A stretch of 49,451 bases of DNA, from assembly GCF_001601825.1 (NCBI RefSeq), contig NZ_LUJK01000022.1, positions 1 through 49,451 of the forward strand. The letters are read 5' to 3'. This document shows positions 3,672 through 37,912 of this stretch, one piece after another. How positions within the stretch are numbered: the stretch's first letter is position 1; each line of letters begins with the position of its first letter. Both the position numbers and the translations under genes were made by a program. This DNA comes from Limnobacter sp. CACIAM 66H1. Its GTDB lineage: Bacteria; Pseudomonadota; Gammaproteobacteria; Burkholderiales; Burkholderiaceae_B. The notes beneath the pieces were generated by a model. That model was not told where the DNA came from, made no database searches, and saw nothing but the letters and a program-made list of their open reading frames with translations.

Positions 3672-4001
3672 ATGAAAAGCCCGCAACCCACCCCGCTTGA
3701 AAACGAGTATTGGCGGCAGGTTAAACGAATCACCCATCGATTACTGGTGGTGTGGATTGGGCTGATTCTTGGTGTGGTTCTGTTTATTCCCCAACTCGGT
3801 ATCACGGTGTATGGGGTTCCCTTGACTTACTGGGTCATCTCCAGTGTGCTGCTTTTGAGTTTTTTAGGATTGGTGGCCTGCTACGCGTGGCGCATGGATA
3901 GGTTAGAATTGAAATTCAAACGAGCGGTGGAAAACAACCGCAACTATCTTGGAGACACGAATGAAGAGCAGCACCGGCGAGGTGGGAAAGCCCCTCACTG
4001 A
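3672..4001 (+). CDS. Small two-helix membrane protein, DUF4212-like
   Basis: A 109-residue protein with two hydrophobic segments (about 23-45 and 52-76), starting ten bases after metW. The pattern YWRQ, then GVPLTYW between the helices, then YAWRMDRLELKF after the second helix resembles DUF4212. That family is normally the small subunit beside a sodium/solute symporter of the acetate-permease type. No symporter gene is adjacent. The 3' end runs 41 bases into the probable icmF start, so co-translation with icmF is likely. The family call is from memory of the pattern. Confidence 0.6.
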   Translation: MKSPQPTPLENEYWRQVKRITHRLLVVWIGLILGVVLFIPQLGITVYGVPLTYWVISSVLLLSFLGLVACYAWRMDRLELKFKRAVENNRNYLGDTNEEQHRRGGKAPH

Positions 4002-7000
4002 CACCAAAGGCACGCCACTGCGTTTTGTAACCGGTTCGTCCCTGTTTGACGGACACGATGCAGCAATCAATATGATTCGCCGTTTGTTGCAAAGCCAAGG
4101 TGCTGAAGTCATTCACTTGGGGCACAACCGTTCCGTTCAGGAATTGGTGGACGCCGCTATACAGGAAGATGCCGACGGCCTGGCCGTGAGCTCCTATCAA
4201 GGCGGGCACAATGAATTTTTCAAATACATGGTGGACGAGCTAAAAGCTCAAAACGCCGGCCATATTCAGGTGTTTGGCGGCGGCGGTGGTGTAATTTTGC
4301 CCGCCGAAATCGAAGCCCTTCAAGCCTATGGTGTGAATCGGATTTACAGCCCCCAAGATGGCCAGAAAATGGGCCTGGAGGGCATGATCGGCGACATGAT
4401 CGCCCGCGCGGCACAAGTGCGCGATGCCCGCAAAAAGATTGACACGGCTTGCACACCTCAAAGCATCAAGGCCTTGGCCAACGACTGGCCGCTGCTGACC
4501 CAACTGATTACCCGCCTTGAGCGTGACGAAGTGCCTGCTGCCGATTTGGAAGTGATTCGCGAGCAAGCCAAAGCCAGTAAAACCCCAGTGTTGGGCATTA
4601 CCGGTACGGGTGGCGCAGGCAAGTCGAGCCTGACTGATGAGCTGATTCGCCGCCTGCGCATGGACCATGGTGATGACCTGACCATTGGCGTGGTGTGTGT
4701 AGACCCTTCCCGCCGTAAAACCGGCGGTGCATTGCTGGGCGATCGCATCCGGATGAATGCCATTGGCCCTTGGGCTGGCAATGGCCCCAAAGTATTCATG
4801 CGCTCACTGGCCACCCGCGATTCCGCTCAGGAAGTACCCGCTACTCTGCCAGATATTATTGCCTTGTGTCGCGCTACGGGTTTTGATGTGGTGCTGATTG
4901 AAACTCCGGGCATTGGCCAGGGCGATGCGGCCATCGTGCCGCATGTGGATTTCAGCCTGTATGTGATGACACCGGAATACGGTGCAGCCAGCCAGCTTGA
5001 AAAAATCGACATGCTGGATTTTGCCGATTTTGTGGCGGTGAACAAATTTGACCGCAAGGGCGCACTCGATGCCCTGCGGGATGTGTGCAAACAGGTGCAG
5101 CGTAACCGCATGGCTTTTACCAGCATGCCCGACACCATGCCTGTGTACGGCACGCTGGCCAGCCGGTTTAACGACGATGGTGTCAGCGCCCTGTATAAAG
5201 CATTGCGCGCAGCCCTGCCCATTGCCAAGCCTTCCAAAGGCTTGTTCAATTCAATCGACACCAAACATTCCACCACCCTGAAAGCCGTAGTGCCTTCCGA
5301 GCGCGTGCGTTATCTGGCTGAAATCGCACAGGCTGTACGCAGTTACAAGGCGCAAGTACAAAAAGACGTGGCTGCAGTGTACGACCTGGAATGCATGCAA
5401 CGTGCCCAAGCCCTATTGCTTGAACACAAGCCTGACAAAACCAAGGCGGTGGAAGCGCTGGATGACATTGTCGAACTGACGAACACTCGAATCAGCATGG
5501 CTGCGCAAAAGGCCATGAAAGACTATTCAAAGCTGACTGAGGGTTACCAAGGCGACACGCTGACCTATGAAGTGCGCGGCAAGGCCCTGCAAGCACCGTT
5601 GACCGTGACTTCGCTCAGTGGCCTGAAAATCAATCGCGTCAGTCTGCCCAAGTTCACCAGTCGGGCCGACCTGCTGAAATTCGTGATGCTGGAAAACCTG
5701 CCGGGTTATTTCCCCTTCACCGCAGGCGTGTTCCCCGTGAAGCGGGAAGGCGAGGACCCTACCCGCATGTTTGCCGGTGAGGGCGACCCCGCACGCACCA
5801 ACCGCCGTTTCAAAATGCTCAGCGGTGCAAGCGATGCCAAGCGATTGTCGACTGCATTTGATTCAGTCACCTTGTATGGTTTCGACCCTGACCTGCGCCC
5901 CGACATTTACGGCAAGGTGGGCACCAGCGGTGTAAGTGTGGCCACGCTAGACGACATGAAAGTGTTGTACAGCGGCTTTGATTTGTGCGCCCCCAGCACC
6001 AGCGTGTCCATGACCATCAACGGCCCTGCACCCAGTATTTTGGCCATGTTCCTGAACACCGCCATTGATCAGCAGGTGGACCTGTTCACAGCCAAAAACA
6101 AGCGCGCACCGAATGCGGATGAATATGCAAACATCAAGGCCAGCACCTTGAAGGCAGTGCGCGGCACCGTGCAAGCGGACATTTTGAAAGAAGATCAAGG
6201 CCAGAACACTTGTATTTTCTCGACTGAATTCAGCCTGCGCGTGATGGGCGACATTCAGCAATACTTCATCGACCACGAAGTGCGTAACTTCTACAGCGTG
6301 TCGATCAGCGGTTATCACATTGCCGAGGCCGGGGCCAACCCGATTTCGCAACTTGCCTTTACGCTTTCGAACGGCTTCACATTCGTGGAAGCCTATTTGG
6401 CGCGTGGCATGAAGATCGACGACTTTGCGCCGAACTTGAGCTTCTTCTTCAGCAATGGCATGGACCCCGAATACACCGTGCTGGGTCGCGTGGCCCGTCG
6501 CATTTGGGCCATTGCCATGCGCGACCGTTACGGTGCAAGCGACCGCAGCCAGAAGTTGAAATATCACATCCAAACCAGTGGTCGAAGCCTGCACGCACAG
6601 GAAATCGCATTCAACGACATACGCACCACCTTGCAAGCCTTGATTGCCGTATATGACAACTGCAATAGCCTTCACACCAACGCCTATGACGAGGCCGTGA
6701 CCACGCCAACCGAGGAAAGCGTACGCCGGGCCATGGCCATTCAGTTGATCATCAACAAGGAATGGGGCTTGGCGAAAAATGAAAACTCAAGCCAAGGAGC
6801 TTTCATTATTGAAGAGCTCACTGAATTGGTGGAAGAAGCTGTGTTGGCTGAACTGGACCGCATCAGCGAACGCGGCGGTGTGTTGGGTGCCATGGAAACA
6901 GGCTACCAGCGCAGCAAAATCCAGGAAGAGTCGATGCATTATGAAATCCAGAAGCATGACGGCACCTTGCCAATTGTGGGTGTGAATACTTTCACCAACC

Positions 7001-7263
7001 CCAATGACAACGCCGATTCCTTGAACTCGCTCGAGCTTGCGCGTGCTACTGAAGAAGAAAAACAAAGCCAGTTGAAACGCTTGGCCGAATTCCAGCAAAA
7101 GCATGCCGCCGAAAGCGGGCCAATGCTGGAGCGTCTGAAGCAGACTGCCATGGACGGCGGCAACGTGTTTGAGGTGCTGGTGGATGCTGTTCGAGTGTGT
7201 TCACTTGGCCAGATTACTCAAGCGCTGTTCGAAGTGGGTGGAAAGTACCGCAGGTCGATGTAA
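3961..7263 (+). CDS. icmF: Fused isobutyryl-CoA mutase (IcmF)
   Basis: A single-chain adenosylcobalamin mutase that interconverts isobutyryl-CoA and n-butyryl-CoA, with its own G-protein chaperone domain. Domains run in the IcmF order. An N-terminal B12-binding domain has SLFDGHDAAIN (His32 as cobalt ligand). A MeaI-type GTPase follows with P-loop GTGGAGKSS (about 214-222). A large mutase barrel forms the C-terminal half. I chose ATG at 3961, with GGAG seven bases upstream, over an in-frame TTG at 3949, giving 1100 residues. Related IcmF enzymes can act on other branched acyl-CoAs, so the exact substrate is open. The stop is immediately followed by repeat copy A. Confidence 0.93.
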   Translation: MKSSTGEVGKPLTDTKGTPLRFVTGSSLFDGHDAAINMIRRLLQSQGAEVIHLGHNRSVQELVDAAIQEDADGLAVSSYQGGHNEFFKYMVDELKAQNAGHIQVFGGGGGVILPAEIEALQAYGVNRIYSPQDGQKMGLEGMIGDMIARAAQVRDARKKIDTACTPQSIKALANDWPLLTQLITRLERDEVPAADLEVIREQAKASKTPVLGITGTGGAGKSSLTDELIRRLRMDHGDDLTIGVVCVDPSRRKTGGALLGDRIRMNAIGPWAGNGPKVFMRSLATRDSAQEVPATLPDIIALCRATGFDVVLIETPGIGQGDAAIVPHVDFSLYVMTPEYGAASQLEKIDMLDFADFVAVNKFDRKGALDALRDVCKQVQRNRMAFTSMPDTMPVYGTLASRFNDDGVSALYKALRAALPIAKPSKGLFNSIDTKHSTTLKAVVPSERVRYLAEIAQAVRSYKAQVQKDVAAVYDLECMQRAQALLLEHKPDKTKAVEALDDIVELTNTRISMAAQKAMKDYSKLTEGYQGDTLTYEVRGKALQAPLTVTSLSGLKINRVSLPKFTSRADLLKFVMLENLPGYFPFTAGVFPVKREGEDPTRMFAGEGDPARTNRRFKMLSGASDAKRLSTAFDSVTLYGFDPDLRPDIYGKVGTSGVSVATLDDMKVLYSGFDLCAPSTSVSMTINGPAPSILAMFLNTAIDQQVDLFTAKNKRAPNADEYANIKASTLKAVRGTVQADILKEDQGQNTCIFSTEFSLRVMGDIQQYFIDHEVRNFYSVSISGYHIAEAGANPISQLAFTLSNGFTFVEAYLARGMKIDDFAPNLSFFFSNGMDPEYTVLGRVARRIWAIAMRDRYGASDRSQKLKYHIQTSGRSLHAQEIAFNDIRTTLQALIAVYDNCNSLHTNAYDEAVTTPTEESVRRAMAIQLIINKEWGLAKNENSSQGAFIIEELTELVEEAVLAELDRISERGGVLGAMETGYQRSKIQEESMHYEIQKHDGTLPIVGVNTFTNPNDNADSLNSLELARATEEEKQSQLKRLAEFQQKHAAESGPMLERLKQTAMDGGNVFEVLVDAVRVCSLGQITQALFEVGGKYRRSM

Positions 7264-7355
7264 AGTGCTGCGGTTTTGGCTCAACTCGGCGTGGGTACCT
7301 TGTGTCGCACAGGGCTGGTTGATTGGAAGCTGAACTTGAAGGATCGCCGTTGCCC

Positions 7356-7485
7356 GAAAACTTGGCATTTCGGCTTGTCGTCTTGAGCCTGCACTAAGCC
7401 AAGCCCTCCAAAAGTCACGGTCGGGTCTTGGCTTTCGCGCCAGGGCGCGATCGTTGGTCTCGGCGCGCCAAGCCGGCAAGTTTTC
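7356..7485. other. Hairpin module 1 of repeat copy A
   Basis: A long imperfect inverted repeat. GAAAACTTG (7356-7364) is complementary to CAAGTTTTC (7477-7485), followed inward by CGGCTT (7371-7376) with AAGCCG (7470-7475). Inside are two smaller hairpins. CCAAGCCC (7399-7406) pairs with GGGTCTTGG (7423-7431) with one bulged T. CGCGCC (7436-7441) pairs with GGCGCG (7444-7449). The architecture matches module 2. Whether it acts as RNA or as single-stranded DNA cannot be told. Confidence 0.75.
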
Positions 7486-7521
7486 TGACTGGTCATCGTG
7501 CGACCCATTGCAAGTTCAGCC

Positions 7522-7723
7522 GCCCAATCGGCGTCGGTGTTTCGATCGCCTCGCCTTCAAGAAAACCTGCCCTTGCGTGCCGAGCAGTGCCGGTGTTGCC
7601 CGGCATGGGCAACAGAGAACGGACCCGACCCGCTTTTTTGGAGGGCCGTTCTCAGGCATCGCGAGGCTCAGCAAGGGGAGTACAGGTTTTCTGGCGAGAG
7701 ATCGGAACCCAAGCCGATCGGGC
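7522..7723. other. Hairpin module 2 of repeat copy A
   Basis: Nested complementary pairs converge on a variable centre. GCCCAATCGGC (7522-7532) pairs with GCCGATCGGGC (7713-7723) with one mismatch. CGATC (7543-7547) pairs with GATCG (7700-7704). TCGCC (7551-7555) pairs with GGCGA (7693-7697). GAAAACCTG (7561-7569) pairs with CAGGTTTTC (7683-7691). CCCTTGC (7570-7576) pairs with GCAAGGG (7671-7677). Two hairpins sit inside: GTTGCCC/GGGCAAC (7595-7613) and GAGAACGG/CCGTTCTC (7615-7653). The closing stems are the same in copy B but the inner arms are not. Confidence 0.78.
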
Positions 7724-7851
7724 TAATCAAGATCGACGCGTTATCGGAACCCAAGCCGATCGGGCTAATCAAGATCGACGCGTTATCGGAACCCAAGCCG
7801 ATCGGGCTAATCAAGATCGACGCGTTATCGGAACCCAAGCCGAGTGGGCTA
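7701..7851. repeat. 42-bp tandem repeat array, 3.6 copies
   Basis: Units begin at 7701, 7743, 7785 and 7827 (the last is partial and diverged). Each unit starts ATCGGAACCCAAGCCGATCG and contains the palindrome CCGATCGG. The first unit is the 3' strand of the outer stem of module 2, so the array offers three extra near-copies of that pairing strand. The period is divisible by three and stop-free in some frames, which makes spurious open frames of 14-residue repeats. Copy B has no such array, only one further diverged half-unit. Confidence 0.92.
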
Positions 7852-7918
7852 AAAAAAACAGCGCTCGTACTTTGCGATAAAATAAAAACCTCGCCGTAAG
7901 TACTCACCAAGCAGCACC

Positions 7919-8578
7919 ATGAAACTCAACGCCGATCTTTCCCAACGCGCGGTCGTCAACAGCAACAATGTCGACTGGGTCGCCTCTCCAGCCCCCGGAG
8001 TATGGCGCAAACCATTGGAACGCGATGGCGATGAAGTGGCGCGTTTAACCTCGATTGTGCGTTACGACCCAGGCTGCGCATTTCCTGAACACGAGCATGG
8101 CGGCGGCGAAGAATTCTTCGTACTTGAAGGCACCTTCGAAGATGAATTTGGCGCGTACCCAGCGGGCACATTTGTGAAGAATCCCGTGGGCACCAAGCAT
8201 TCTCCCAAGTCCACAGAAGGCTGCACAATTCTCGTGAAGCTTCGCCACATGCGGCCAGAGGATCAAACACCGGTTGTCATCGATACCCACCAGGCCGAAT
8301 GGCGGCAGGGCTTGGTACCGGGCTTGAAGGTCATGCCGCTGGACAGCTTCGAGACCCGTCACACCGCGCTGGTGAAGTGGGCTCCCGAAACCTATTTCAA
8401 CATGCATCGCCACATGGGCGGCGAAGAAATTTTTGTGCTTGAAGGCGTGTTCTCAGATGAGCATGGCGACTACCCCGCAGGGACCTGGATACGCAGCCCA
8501 CATGCCAGCGTACATACACCTTTCAGCAAACCAGGTTGCACCATTCTTGTCCGTACGGGTCATTTGATCGACGCATAA
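7919..8578 (+). CDS. Double-cupin protein, ChrR-cupin-like
   Basis: A 219-residue cytoplasmic protein made of two similar cupin halves. The first has HEHGGGEEFFVLEGTFEDE and a PAGTFVKNP turn (about 59-90). The second has MHRHMGGEEIFVLEGVFSDE and PAGTWIRSP (about 161-195). The paired His and Glu residues in each half are the usual cupin metal ligands. The repeats resemble the cupin domain of the ChrR anti-sigma factor. No sigma factor gene is adjacent and no zinc-binding anti-sigma domain is present, so it is more likely a stand-alone enzyme or sensor. The substrate is unknown. Confidence 0.8.
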   Translation: MKLNADLSQRAVVNSNNVDWVASPAPGVWRKPLERDGDEVARLTSIVRYDPGCAFPEHEHGGGEEFFVLEGTFEDEFGAYPAGTFVKNPVGTKHSPKSTEGCTILVKLRHMRPEDQTPVVIDTHQAEWRQGLVPGLKVMPLDSFETRHTALVKWAPETYFNMHRHMGGEEIFVLEGVFSDEHGDYPAGTWIRSPHASVHTPFSKPGCTILVRTGHLIDA

Positions 8579-33294: not shown

Positions 33295-33949
33295 CAGTCG
33301 AATTGTTTGAGCCGAAGGCCTTGTACAAAACCAAGGCCAACAGGCCGCCAATTACCTCAAACACCATGTAAGCGGGTACGTCGCCCGGTGCAATGCCGGC
33401 AAAGCTGTTGGAGAACTGCCTGCCAAAAGCGGCGGCGGGGTTGGCAAAAGAGGTACTGGAGGTGAACCAATAGGCCGCGCCGATGTAACAGGCCACCATG
33501 CCAGAAACCCGTTCTGCCTTGGCCATGAGAATGACCAGCAACAGCCCCGCAGTGGCCACAATTTCACCGGTCCAGATTCCCCAACCTGTACGAGCTTTTT
33601 CAGAGAACTGAAGGAGCTGCATATCGAACATTTGGTGAACCAGAATGGCACCGAAAAAGGCGCCAGCCAGTTGCACGATGATGTAGGGCAACAGTTCAGA
33701 ACCCGGTTGGCGTTTCAGCAACACCATGGTGAGTGTGACGACGGGGTTGAAGTGCGCACCGCTGATGGGGCCAAATACTTCAATCAAAATGTAAAGGCCG
33801 AACACGGTGGCCAAGGTGTTGGCGATCAATGCCACGCCGTTGTTGCCCTCGGACAGGTTTTCGGCCATGACGCCCGAGCCAATCACGATGGCTAGCAGCA
33901 GTAGGGTACCCAAGAATTCAGCACCCAAGCGTTTGGATAAGGAGTACAT
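33263..33949 (-). CDS. Aquaporin-family channel of an arsenic operon (AqpS-like)
   Basis: A 228-residue channel with six helices and two half-helix motifs. The first is NPV (68-70) instead of NPA. The second is NPA (170-172) followed by Ala where water channels have the pore arginine. That implies an unusual selectivity filter. It is the last gene behind arsR and arsC, and no ArsB or Acr3 pump is present. By analogy with rhizobial AqpS, arsenite made by ArsC could leave through this channel. Transport of arsenite is inference from context. Confidence 0.82.
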   Translation of the reverse strand: MYSLSKRLGAEFLGTLLLLAIVIGSGVMAENLSEGNNGVALIANTLATVFGLYILIEVFGPISGAHFNPVVTLTMVLLKRQPGSELLPYIIVQLAGAFFGAILVHQMFDMQLLQFSEKARTGWGIWTGEIVATAGLLLVILMAKAERVSGMVACYIGAAYWFTSSTSFANPAAAFGRQFSNSFAGIAPGDVPAYMVFEVIGGLLALVLYKAFGSNNSTVTSQAPNPAA

Positions 33950-35211: not shown

Positions 35212-36435
35212 TCAGGCCGCTTTCCGGACAGTTGAGCCTTTGAGGGTCGTGTTTCGCGGTCGACGGGTTTTGGGAAGAGGCGCTTCCACTTGTGAGTGAC
35301 CACGTAGCCAATCTGCTGCTTTGGCCCACACATGTTCGCGAGCCTGACTGCCTAAAATAACGCCCATATGCCCGCCGGGTGCAAGCAAGAATGATTTGTC
35401 TTTTGATGAGACGAGCTTCAGGCTTTTCTTGGCCATGCTGCCTGGCACCAAATGGTCGGTTTCGCCTGCAAACACCAGCATATTGGCGGTGATGTTCCCC
35501 AGGTCCGAGAATTTGTCACCAATCTTGACCTTGCCCTGCGCCAGTTTGTTGTCCACCGCAAAACGGACCATGAAGTCGCGCAACACGCCGCCTGGGTACA
35601 ACATCATGTTGTTCAGGTAGTCGGCTGTGGTGGTGTGTTGTTCAACGAAATCGCGGTCGTTCAGGCGGGTCAGCAGGTCCCAGTAGGTGGTGATGCTGGC
35701 CACTGGTGCAGTGAGTTTGAACCCCAGGCTGACCATCCAGCCGGGTGGGCTGAACAGGGCAGGGTTAATGCGATCCAGCCTGAATTCGCTGTACTTGCGA
35801 ATAAAACGGGCAGTGACATTCAGGGTGTTGGAGGCCACAGCCATGATGTTTTTGCCGTCGCGCAGGTCGATCGGGCTGGCCACAGTGACCAGGTTGCGGA
35901 TGTGTTTGTCGTGCCCATAACCGGCATACAGCAAACAGAGCAAACCGCCCATGCACCACCCGAACAGGGAAATGTCTCTGGAGCCACTGTGTTCGCGCAC
36001 GGCCTGAAGTGCTTGGCCCATCATGTCGTGGCTGTAGTCAAACAAACCCAGATGACCGTCTTTGCGCTCTGGTTTGCCCCAGTCCACCAAATAAACACGG
36101 AAGCCGGCTTCAACCATGGCTTTCACCAGGCTGCGGTCGGGCATCAGGTCGAATGTTTCGGTGGTAACTCCCAAAGGGGGCACCAGCACCAAGGGCACCG
36201 CATGTTGACGATTCGTTGAAGTCTCGATTTCGCCTTCAGCCAGGCTTGCGCCTGGTGTGGCTGCAGCCGGTGCGTAATAGCGCACGCGCATGGGCAGGTG
36301 TTCAGCAATGACCTCATATTCAGTTTTGCCCGACTGAATCAGGATTTCCTTGCGAAAAAACCAATCCGCCGCATTGGTCGCGGTATTGACGGCCAACTCA
36401 TTGATTTTCAGGGCGGTTTTGAATAGTTTTTTCAC
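35212..36435 (-). CDS. PHA synthase-like alpha/beta hydrolase (PhaC family)
   Basis: A 407-residue protein with the PHA-synthase variant of the lipase box, GWCMGG, giving nucleophile Cys161. AGETDHLVP supplies Asp and APGGHMGVILG the His. PLVLVPPLGVTTETFDLMPD is typical of class III PhaC and related proteins. It may polymerise hydroxyacyl-CoA, but no phaE, phaA, phaB or phasin gene is beside it. A related acyltransferase or hydrolase role is possible. The C-terminal 35 residues are basic and low in complexity. Repeat copy B lies upstream. Confidence 0.75.
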   Translation of the reverse strand: MKKLFKTALKINELAVNTATNAADWFFRKEILIQSGKTEYEVIAEHLPMRVRYYAPAAATPGASLAEGEIETSTNRQHAVPLVLVPPLGVTTETFDLMPDRSLVKAMVEAGFRVYLVDWGKPERKDGHLGLFDYSHDMMGQALQAVREHSGSRDISLFGWCMGGLLCLLYAGYGHDKHIRNLVTVASPIDLRDGKNIMAVASNTLNVTARFIRKYSEFRLDRINPALFSPPGWMVSLGFKLTAPVASITTYWDLLTRLNDRDFVEQHTTTADYLNNMMLYPGGVLRDFMVRFAVDNKLAQGKVKIGDKFSDLGNITANMLVFAGETDHLVPGSMAKKSLKLVSSKDKSFLLAPGGHMGVILGSQAREHVWAKAADWLRGHSQVEAPLPKTRRPRNTTLKGSTVRKAA

Positions 36436-36634
36436 GGTTGCTGCGGTGCAATGTTGAGATGTTCGAAGTTTATACGCACAGTGGGGCGTTTCGGATGAGG
36501 GTTTACTCTAAATACAGATTTCTGACCCCAACTTGAAGGTATGCCGCTGCTGTCTGTAGCCTACTCGGCATGTGTTACTTGTGCCGCACTGAACTGGTGA
36601 TTTAAGAGCTGAACCTGAAGGGTCACCGCTGCCC

Positions 36635-36764
36635 GAAAACTTGGCATTTCGGCTTGTCGTCTTGAGCCTGCACTAAGCCAAGCCCTCCAAAAGTCACGGT
36701 CGGGTCTTGGCTTTCGCGCCAGGGCGCGATCGTTGGTCTCGGCGCGCCAAGCCGGCAAGTTTTC
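36635..36764. other. Hairpin module 1 of repeat copy B
   Basis: Identical to module 1 of copy A (7356-7485). GAAAACTTG pairs with CAAGTTTTC, and CGGCTT with AAGCCG. Two inner hairpins follow: CCAAGCCC with GGGTCTTGG, and CGCGCC with GGCGCG. The flanks to the left are only about two-thirds identical, so the identity is local to this module. Confidence 0.75.
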
Positions 36765-36857
36765 TGACTGGTCATCGTGCGACCCATTGCAAGTTCAGCT
36801 CCCCGTACTCCCGTGCAGCGCTTCGCCATCACCGGGCAACTCGCAGCTGTGTTCAAC

Positions 36858-37051
36858 GCCCAATCGGCGGCGGTGTTTCGATCGCTTCGCCTTCAAGAAA
36901 ACCTGCCCGTTTGAATTCACCCGCCACGCTCGGCCATGGGCCGGCACCGAGACTCGGCCCGCCCTTTTGCCGAGCGAGGTGAGTCAGGGTGAATATCAAA
37001 AAGGGAAATACAGGTTTTCTGGCGAGAGATCGGAACCCAAGCCGATCGGGC
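36858..37051. other. Hairpin module 2 of repeat copy B
   Basis: The closing stems are the same as in copy A: 36858-36868 with 37041-37051, 36879-36883 with 37028-37032, 36887-36891 with 37021-37025, and 36897-36905 with 37011-37019. The next stem differs in sequence but is strong. TTTGAATTCACCC (36910-36922) pairs with GGGTGAATATCAAA (36987-37000) with one bulge. The inner hairpins also differ: CGGCC/GGCCG (36931-36943) and CTCGGC/GCCGAG (36953-36974). Pairing is kept while sequence changes. Confidence 0.78.
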
Positions 37052-37120
37052 GATTAAGAAAGAAGCTGCGGGACAGCTGAGCCCAAGCCGATTGGGCCAA
37101 GCAAACCAGTAAGAGAGCAA

Positions 37121-37912
37121 TCAGCCTTCCATGCTCGCCCAAAGCCCGCTCCAGATCCGCATGCCGGCTTGGTCCACTTCGTCCACTGCGCCTAAAAACC
37201 GCTCACGGGCCTGAACATTGACCCATTCTGCGGGCAAGAACGGGTCGTACACCACATGCTTGATTGCGGTGCCGCCCAACAAGAATGATTCACGGGCGGC
37301 GACTTCAGGTTCCAGCGTACCGGAGCGGTCAAGCCAGGTGCGCATTTTCTTTTCCAATTGTGCGTAGTTGGATTCCAGTTCACGTGGGTTCCACAAAGTA
37401 GCAATTCGGCGCTGAAGCTCGGAGTCAAAATCACGAGCCTCGAACACCGGCGCGTCTTTCTCCAAACCCAGTTTGTACAATCGATCACGCACACTTTGCA
37501 GTGTGTCTTCAATGTTGTTGGGGCGAATGAACAGGTGTTCATTCAATGGTTGAAAGCCCAGCATCAGCAAGGCACGGGCGCGTGCTCGCTGCTGTTTGGC
37601 CTCACTGCGCGAGAGCTTGTCGGCTTGTACCACAATGTAGCTGCCATCCCAAGGGCGAACCCGTGTGCTTCGGGTGCGCCAGGCGGCTACATCGTCTGCC
37701 AGCGTGTGTGCGTCGTCGGTGAGTTGGTACAGGGCGCGGCCTGCTGATTCGATCAGGCCTTCAGCCGAGAGCCGCACTAGCGCCACACGTGTGTTGTTCA
37801 CGCTGATGTCAAAAATGCCGCAGGCGGCGATGGCCTGTTTGGCTGAAAGGGGTCGACCTTTGGAGGCAAGCAACAGGTCGAGAATGAGGCTTTTGGCGGT
37901 GGGTTTGCGCAC
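37121..37912 (-). CDS. PaaX-like transcriptional regulator
   Basis: A 263-residue regulator with an N-terminal winged helix (SLILDLLLASKGRPLSAKQAI). The central PaaX-type stretch includes RVRPWDGSYIVVQADKLSR. PaaX represses phenylacetate degradation genes in other bacteria, but no paa genes are in this window. The target is therefore unknown, and the divergent AcuI-like gene is one candidate. Its stop abuts repeat copy B. Confidence 0.8.
   Translation of the reverse strand: MRKPTAKSLILDLLLASKGRPLSAKQAIAACGIFDISVNNTRVALVRLSAEGLIESAGRALYQLTDDAHTLADDVAAWRTRSTRVRPWDGSYIVVQADKLSRSEAKQQRARARALLMLGFQPLNEHLFIRPNNIEDTLQSVRDRLYKLGLEKDAPVFEARDFDSELQRRIATLWNPRELESNYAQLEKKMRTWLDRSGTLEPEVAARESFLLGGTAIKHVVYDPFLPAEWVNVQARERFLGAVDEVDQAGMRIWSGLWASMEG

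Follow-up and report, generated by a model that had tools for sequence, protein, structure and literature searches.

Two copies of a gene-free element

In the present work, we characterized two long, gene-free repeats of Limnobacter sp. CACIAM 66H1. Both lie within the window, by which we mean the whole stretch of 49,451 nucleotides that was analysed. Copy A (7264-7860) and copy B (about 36515-37120) have identical orientation, as an earlier note on this DNA had claimed, and the exact block of 170 bases that they share (7351-7520 = 36630-36799) was verified. The features of both loci are listed below; genes were assigned by Pfam, and model matches refer to a covariance model (CM) built solely from left hairpins of type 3.

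3949-7263, plus strand: methylmalonyl-CoA mutase-type protein with MeaB domain, upstream of copy A
7264-7328, plus strand: upstream spare arms of copy A, immediately following the mutase stop codon; partial 5′-arm repeats at other copies
7329-7520, plus strand: left hairpin of copy A, type 1, core stem GAAAACTTG...CAAGTTTTC; weak CM match at 7350-7495 on the plus strand
7522-7723, minus strand: right hairpin of copy A, type 2A, an inverted relative of the left hairpins; CM match at 7551-7697 on the minus strand, 41.7 bits
7701-7853, plus strand: tandem 42-nt units of copy A, spare 3′ arms
7919-8578, plus strand: ChrR-like cupin, downstream of copy A
35212-36435, minus strand: alpha/beta hydrolase, left of copy B
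36515-36607, plus strand: upstream part of copy B, spare arms; left edge taken from the empty site in genome G001
36608-36799, plus strand: left hairpin of copy B, type 1, identical to copy A over 36630-36799; weak CM match at 36630-36774 on the plus strand
36800-36857, plus strand: inter-hairpin spacer of copy B, missing in copy A
36858-37051, minus strand: right hairpin of copy B, type 2B, an inverted relative of the type-3 left hairpins; CM match at 36887-37025 on the minus strand, 112.2 bits
37052-37120, plus strand: tail of copy B, which includes a single degenerate spare 3′ arm (37068-37097) and extends to the stop codon of the gene downstream
37121-37912, minus strand: PaaX-like regulator, right of copy B, with its 3′ end abutting the element

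Each copy holds two nested hairpin modules, and both fold far more stably than expected by chance, with −306.4 kcal/mol for 7264-7918 (z −11.3) and −271.8 kcal/mol for 36500-37120 (z −6.0); none of 20 shuffled sequences was as stable in either case. The three ORFs across the copies reach the cut-off of no Pfam family and match no PHROG, the sole Pfam trace being a sub-threshold 13-residue stretch of DUF1641, in agreement with the earlier view that the repeats contain no plausible protein. At the 3′ end of copy A, the motif of the tandem 42-nt units starts at 7701, 7743, 7785 and 7827. The apical loops of copy A's left (7403-7427) and right (7622-7646) hairpins are complementary over 25 nt (80%) and could therefore pair with each other. 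Two lone GAAAACCTG core motifs occur away from both elements, at 5692-5702 (plus strand) and 33852-33862 (minus strand).

In an element, a left hairpin of type 1 or type 3 is paired with a right hairpin, either 2A or 2B; to these are added a spacer and series of spare outer arms, with repeated 5′ arms on the left side and 3′ arms on the right. Whole elements measure ~500-600 nt, and each hairpin of ~190 nt combines an outer stem with a core stem that hardly varies (GAAAAC/GTTTTC) and an apex that does. A constant AGAAAAC/GTTTTCT stem is present in left and right hairpins, which form inverted ends. Since the left type-3 CM picks up both right hairpins in the window, on the minus strand (112.2 bits for 2B and 41.7 bits for 2A), left and right hairpins are homologous and mutually inverted. 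The same model matches the type-1 hairpins of the window weakly on the plus strand, and these low scores (20.3 bits, E 0.012) hint that type 1 may belong with the other hairpin types.

Alignments took in all 11 type-1 representatives, 22 of the 28 of type 3 and 30 of the 56 right hairpins, whose loops were poorly aligned. Among the 22 type-3 sequences, 24 of 50 pairs are altered on both sides somewhere, giving 82 double-change cells vs. a shuffled mean of 24 (0/500 shuffles as high), and sliding the pairing partners abolishes the signal. Compensatory change is lower in type 1 (9/43 pairs) and in right hairpins (12/31 pairs). Very stable folds and strong compensatory change would suit a structured regulatory RNA, present in many copies and made from one strand, and a structured non-coding RNA was one of three guesses in the earlier note. 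However, template switching in palindromes is also able to generate covariation, and the hairpins, being arranged in inverted pairs, are present on both strands. G-U vs. A-C mismatch cells numbered 6/26 in type 1, 42/43 in type 3 and 39/32 in right hairpins; in type 1, any preference is for the minus strand (6 vs. 26 cells, 5 vs. 15 columns, p 0.04). Because this preference is inconsistent across hairpin types, a one-strand RNA was rejected, and the mismatches argue that the hairpins act or arose as DNA, or on both strands. In addition, no promoter-like site was found in copies A and B, and a check against Rfam gave no match for the whole window (gathering score), for copy A (E up to 5) or for 14 related loci (gathering score). 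Although pairing is strongly conserved, we consider a regulatory RNA very improbable.

Two smaller points concern other readings of the copies. A simple scan found 1 and 2 intrinsic terminators in the two copies vs. 1.2 and 1.0 expected, and terminators inside the element were accordingly rejected as not above chance in that scan. The attC and CRISPR readings appeared not to fit and were set aside from inspection of the sequence alone.

Distribution, gene neighbourhood and orientation

The comparison covered the genome of the strain itself (G000; 3.2 Mb, 108 contigs) and 15 other genomes of the genus Limnobacter (G001-G015). Matches in the result tables were merged manually into element places, left-to-right hairpin cross-matches on the opposite strand were discarded from the counts, and absences and censuses are lower bounds. 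G000 contains at least 38 matching pieces (best 40 of 43 candidates scored) and at least 22 elements; those 22 were analysed, and the CM reveals further places. The earlier note had held that a lack of further copies in any relative would speak against the element. On the contrary, DNA matches were present in at least 12 of the 15 other genomes when up to the best 10 candidates per genome were scored; at that depth L. litoralis and L. humi gave weak matches only, and G002, G010 and G015 gave none. Likewise, up to the best 10 candidates in each of 20 genomes of other genera in the family and 24 of other families in the order included no match. The CM survey (best 40 candidates per genome, stricter filters) recovered the left type-3 hairpin in 3/3 Limnobacter genomes and in 0/78 genomes representing 42 further genera in the family. 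An exact right-hairpin-loop pattern found 47 stretches in the genome collection, 37 in Limnobacter and 10 in two MAGs, and no matching record was found in the plasmid and phage collections. Among the genomes searched, the element family is restricted to Limnobacter.

Right-hairpin-like apices were seen within other arms in L. humi (G014, L087-L090) and L. litoralis (G004, L096); L096 has several tandem arms and, with the L. humi copies, forms a more distant branch of the same family.

For the genomes used below, the candidates scored were 39 of 39 in one search and the best 40 of 48 in another for G007, and the best 40 of 71 for G009, 40 of 49 for G012 and 40 of 61 for G011; places in G007, G012 and G011 are those among the matches listed. 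Elements sit at gene 3′ ends, often between convergent genes. Flanking genes, called by a codon-score script rather than a gene finder, are convergent at 12/22 places in G000, 12/23 in G007 and 26/40 in G009, vs. 47/299 (G007) and 38/303 (G009) neighbouring gene pairs in sampled DNA. No divergent gap holds an element in G000 or G007, and one doubtful case occurs in G009.

Orientation was judged relative to replication. Both G007 and G009 have dnaA near 1.2 kb, and a dif-like site at 1.60 Mb and 1.72 Mb, respectively. Since the motif read backwards also matches (0-3 times per genome), the call of this site rests on its agreement with the sign change in GC skew, at 1.62-1.73 Mb in G007 and 1.64-1.76 Mb in G009 (20 samples per genome). 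Of the 25 listed G007 places, 24 point with the fork (p 1.5e-6, and p 8e-6 against the 55% share of leading-strand genes), as do 15 of the 18 listed places on the ori contig of G011 (p 0.008); this contig, C1, was the only one judged in G011, and the terminus was assumed to lie outside it (no dif-like match on C1). In G009, the count is 29/41 (p 0.012), which is not above the 59% share of leading-strand genes (p 0.15). Convergent gaps, where gene strand gives no direction, have 12/12 elements with the fork in G007 and 20/26 in G009. On a simple reading of contig C3 in G012, 7/12 places agree with the fork and 5/12 disagree, and G012 was excluded from the statistics because C3 and the dif-like site on C1 are irreconcilable. 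These tests are not independent, since many sites are common to several genomes. An orientation bias along replication is thus seen in two genomes, G007 and G011. The earlier note had also guessed at a single-stranded-DNA hairpin element, and since orientation follows the fork in G007, the elements may be of this kind.

One explanation of the bias is a polar chromosome element, maintained by the host along the direction of replication to aid forks, transcription ends or chromosome organisation. The orientation counts in G007, G011 and the convergent gaps of G007 are consistent with it, as is a gap around the dif-like site, from 1.10 to 1.79 Mb, in which none of the 25 listed places in G007 falls. 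Moreover, all 13 elements that keep their direction at sites common to G009 and G007 obey the fork rule in G009, several of them on the other replichore there. However, exactly the 4 common G009 elements that are turned round break the rule, the overall G009 count does not exceed gene bias, and among the best-scored candidates, G002, G010 and G015 gave no match and L. litoralis and L. humi weak ones only. No protein is known to bind these hairpins, which also counts against it, and we regard a host-maintained polar element as quite unlikely. It is a comparably long shot that the host uses a genus-wide set of giant polar hairpin pairs as boundaries, oriented by replication and placed at the 3′ ends of genes, with fixed sites, cassettes exchanged by recombination, the left type facing the leading-strand gene and the right type facing the head-on gene. 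If true, this would amount to chromosome-scale handling of transcription-replication encounters, made from repeats.

The opposite view is that the repeats are neutral debris, that is, functionless palindromes that are tolerated downstream of genes and kept alike by recombination, with the G007 bias an accident of a few ancient insertions. The weak polarity in G009 is in line with this view, but 24/25 places in G007 and 12/12 in its convergent gaps speak against it, and compensatory change preserves pairing over divergent species. We think neutral debris unlikely, though the best placed of the competing explanations.

Old sites, exchanged hairpins and repeated spread

For 21 of the 22 G000 elements, G007 has an element at the same site, and this is also true of 17 of 40 fetched G009 elements (one by its downstream flank alone); at 4 of these 17, the G009 element is reversed relative to the genes. 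At 13 of the 21 sites common to G000 and G007, the two genomes have different sets of hairpins, and at 9 the hairpin type has changed. Even where the type is the same, values for same-site and randomly paired sites are close, being 0.039 vs. 0.042 for type 1 (p 0.12, 7 pairs) and 0.048 vs. 0.052 for type 2A (p 0.11, 12 pairs). Thus, same-site hairpins are no more alike than random pairs, while the flanks in G000 and G007 are 90.6% identical.

The copy B site illustrates this exchange. Among 12 genomes examined, 9 have an element there, in six different hairpin sets, and three have none. The sets are 1+2B in G000, 1 in G007, 3+2B in G009 and G011, 3+2A in G003, 3 alone in G005, G006 and G012, and another type in G008. 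The earlier note had proposed looking for empty sites in relatives, and the copy B site is empty in G001, where 60 nt separate the flanking matches and end at the stop codon of the PaaX-like gene. An element occupies the copy A site in 5 of the 8 genomes fetched; the other three are not clean empty sites, since the neighbouring gene is also different. These observations show that the sites are old and that hairpins are homogenised across sites rather than staying with their site. The comparison records outcomes rather than conversion events, and transfer between species could also mix hairpins.

The family has also entered new places. In G009, a sister subfamily with a different left hairpin, a 2B-like right hairpin and its own tandem arms has filled some 15 more places, of which 12 were read. 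Four of its sites were tested; at three of them, the 618-708 nt of G009 correspond to 0, 26 and 61 nt in G012, and G007 has 54 and 55 nt at two of the three; some of the short gaps contain a small hairpin. These short gaps in G012 and G007, where G009 carries elements, indicate that the family underwent more than one round of spread. Neither the copy B empty site nor five empty gaps of the sister subfamily revealed a recognisable target duplication, but the spacers there have diverged.

Several details of the sister subfamily were noted in passing. The G009 members (L206, L207, L210, L212 and L214-L221) have a AGAAAGCCTG/CAGGCTTTC right-hairpin core and tandem 25-nt arms, and the subfamily is partly common to G008 (L253, L254) and missing at the tested sites in G007 and G012. 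The inter-hairpin spacers of L206-L221 contain runs of a 7-nt unit, e.g., GCAAGTC or GCAGGTC, in numbers that vary between copies.

We searched the genus for two families of mobility enzymes. The Y1 transposase (PF01797) was found in 1/16 Limnobacter genomes, G008 only, with controls positive in 5/14 genomes, and reverse transcriptase (PF00078) in 5/16, with none in the copy-rich G007 and G009. On these grounds, a RAYT/IS200-605 origin and a retroelement of group II intron or retron type were each rejected.

A miniature mobile element was the best of the three guesses in the earlier note, in that the repeats are multi-copy and genus-wide, leave an empty site, include newer insertions and match nothing in Rfam; it falls short in that neither enzyme searched fits as the mover and no target duplication was recognised. 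A rival reading is that a still active MITE-like element is moved in trans by another enzyme, and common sites are preferred targets that are refilled. The newer sister-subfamily insertions in G009 and the inverted ends with their constant AGAAAAC/GTTTTCT stem agree with such activity, and re-insertion could account for the 4 of 17 common G009 sites that are reversed. On the other hand, 21 of 22 G000 sites are common to G007, with flanks 90.6% identical, leaving hardly any new site, and no target duplication was recognised, although the enzyme search covered just two families. On balance, we judge an active MITE-like element unlikely.

Relation to known repeats and a possible history

It is very likely, in our view, that the element follows the REPIN/BIME plan in a much enlarged form. 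Like REPINs and BIMEs, as portrayed in PMC3116915, it is an inverted hairpin pair in extragenic space, and the CM match on the opposite strand shows two inverted repeats forming one unit. According to PMC3733652, REPs lie mostly in unidirectional and convergent gaps, beside the 3′ end of the upstream ORF; the Limnobacter elements have the same placement, and their arms are likewise mosaic and clustered.

At gene ends, small palindromic repeats are widespread, and a RAYT transposase usually goes with them; REP units are palindromes of 20-40 bp tagged GTAG or CGTC. In contrast, the Limnobacter hairpins have ~190 nt and the elements ~500-600 nt, the Y1 (TnpA-REP) transposase is missing from 15/16 genomes, and within 14 nt of the extracted ends of 78 left-hairpin stretches, GTAG occurred twice and CGTC never. 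Lacking two defining features, the transposase and the small tagged unit, the family was not classed as a RAYT-dependent REP.

Other systems share some features. By its description in PMC3049150, BOX of Streptococcus pneumoniae also has two end modules with a varying number of tandem units, an RNA stem-loop and enrichment in convergent gaps, a preference that RUP and SPRITE share. However, that text gives modules of about 50 nt and places 60.8% of BOX on the leading strand, in line with coding bias (PMC3049150). In Limnobacter, the tandem units represent spare arms that lie outside the hairpins, and the orientation count in G007 is 24/25. MITEs are similarly gene-free and multi-copy, with empty sites and inverted-repeat ends, here represented by the constant core stem and inverted hairpins. 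The differences are that no target duplication was recognised among the diverged spacers, no related transposase was found with PF01797 and PF00078, and the Limnobacter element has two complete nested hairpins in place of simple terminal repeats. IS200/IS605 and other lagging-strand elements likewise have imperfect hairpins at their ends and are linked to the template of the lagging strand (PMC6006769), but 15/16 Limnobacter genomes lack a Y1 transposase, and the end hairpins of the Limnobacter element are mutually inverted.

A literature search of incomplete coverage found no description of the Limnobacter element among titles and opening lines of abstracts. In a genome note on L. thiooxidans (PMC10793337), the terms palindrom-, intergenic and hairpin are absent and "repeat" occurs once, in a reference title; Limnobacter is not named in PMC3733652 or PMC12306157. 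The earlier suggestion of an undescribed system holds to that extent.

Taking these lines together, the elements are probably a Limnobacter-specific family of giant, non-autonomous, REPIN/BIME-like hairpin repeats at gene 3′ ends, homogenised by recombination, to which a function may be attached. Its history can be pictured in three steps. First, the family could have spread into gene 3′ ends in a fork-dependent manner, perhaps via a single-stranded or hairpin stage, by means of an enzyme that is now gone or has escaped recognition. Second, recombination between copies via their common arms might overwrite hairpins at fixed sites and so keep the family alike. Third, the element, which takes the position expected of an ordinary terminator hairpin, may end or insulate transcription from one or both sides. 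As a whole, we offer these steps tentatively, as somewhat short of an even proposition.

The family is many times larger than ordinary palindromic repeats at gene ends, and a RAYT-type enzyme is missing in 15/16 genomes. It also provides a natural experiment, in which the same sites across species have swapped hairpins and occur in empty, filled and flipped versions, with a 24/25 orientation bias in G007. Two questions thereby become testable, namely how such repeats spread and stay homogeneous without RAYT, and whether transcript ends and the passage of forks are influenced by hairpins that lie between convergent genes.

Finally, two chimeric elements were observed, of the form that hairpin recombination would leave. 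L093 in G001 has the 5′ half of a type-1 hairpin fused to the 3′ half of a 2B hairpin, and in L092 of G006, a type-3 hairpin is followed by a leftover type-1 3′ arm.
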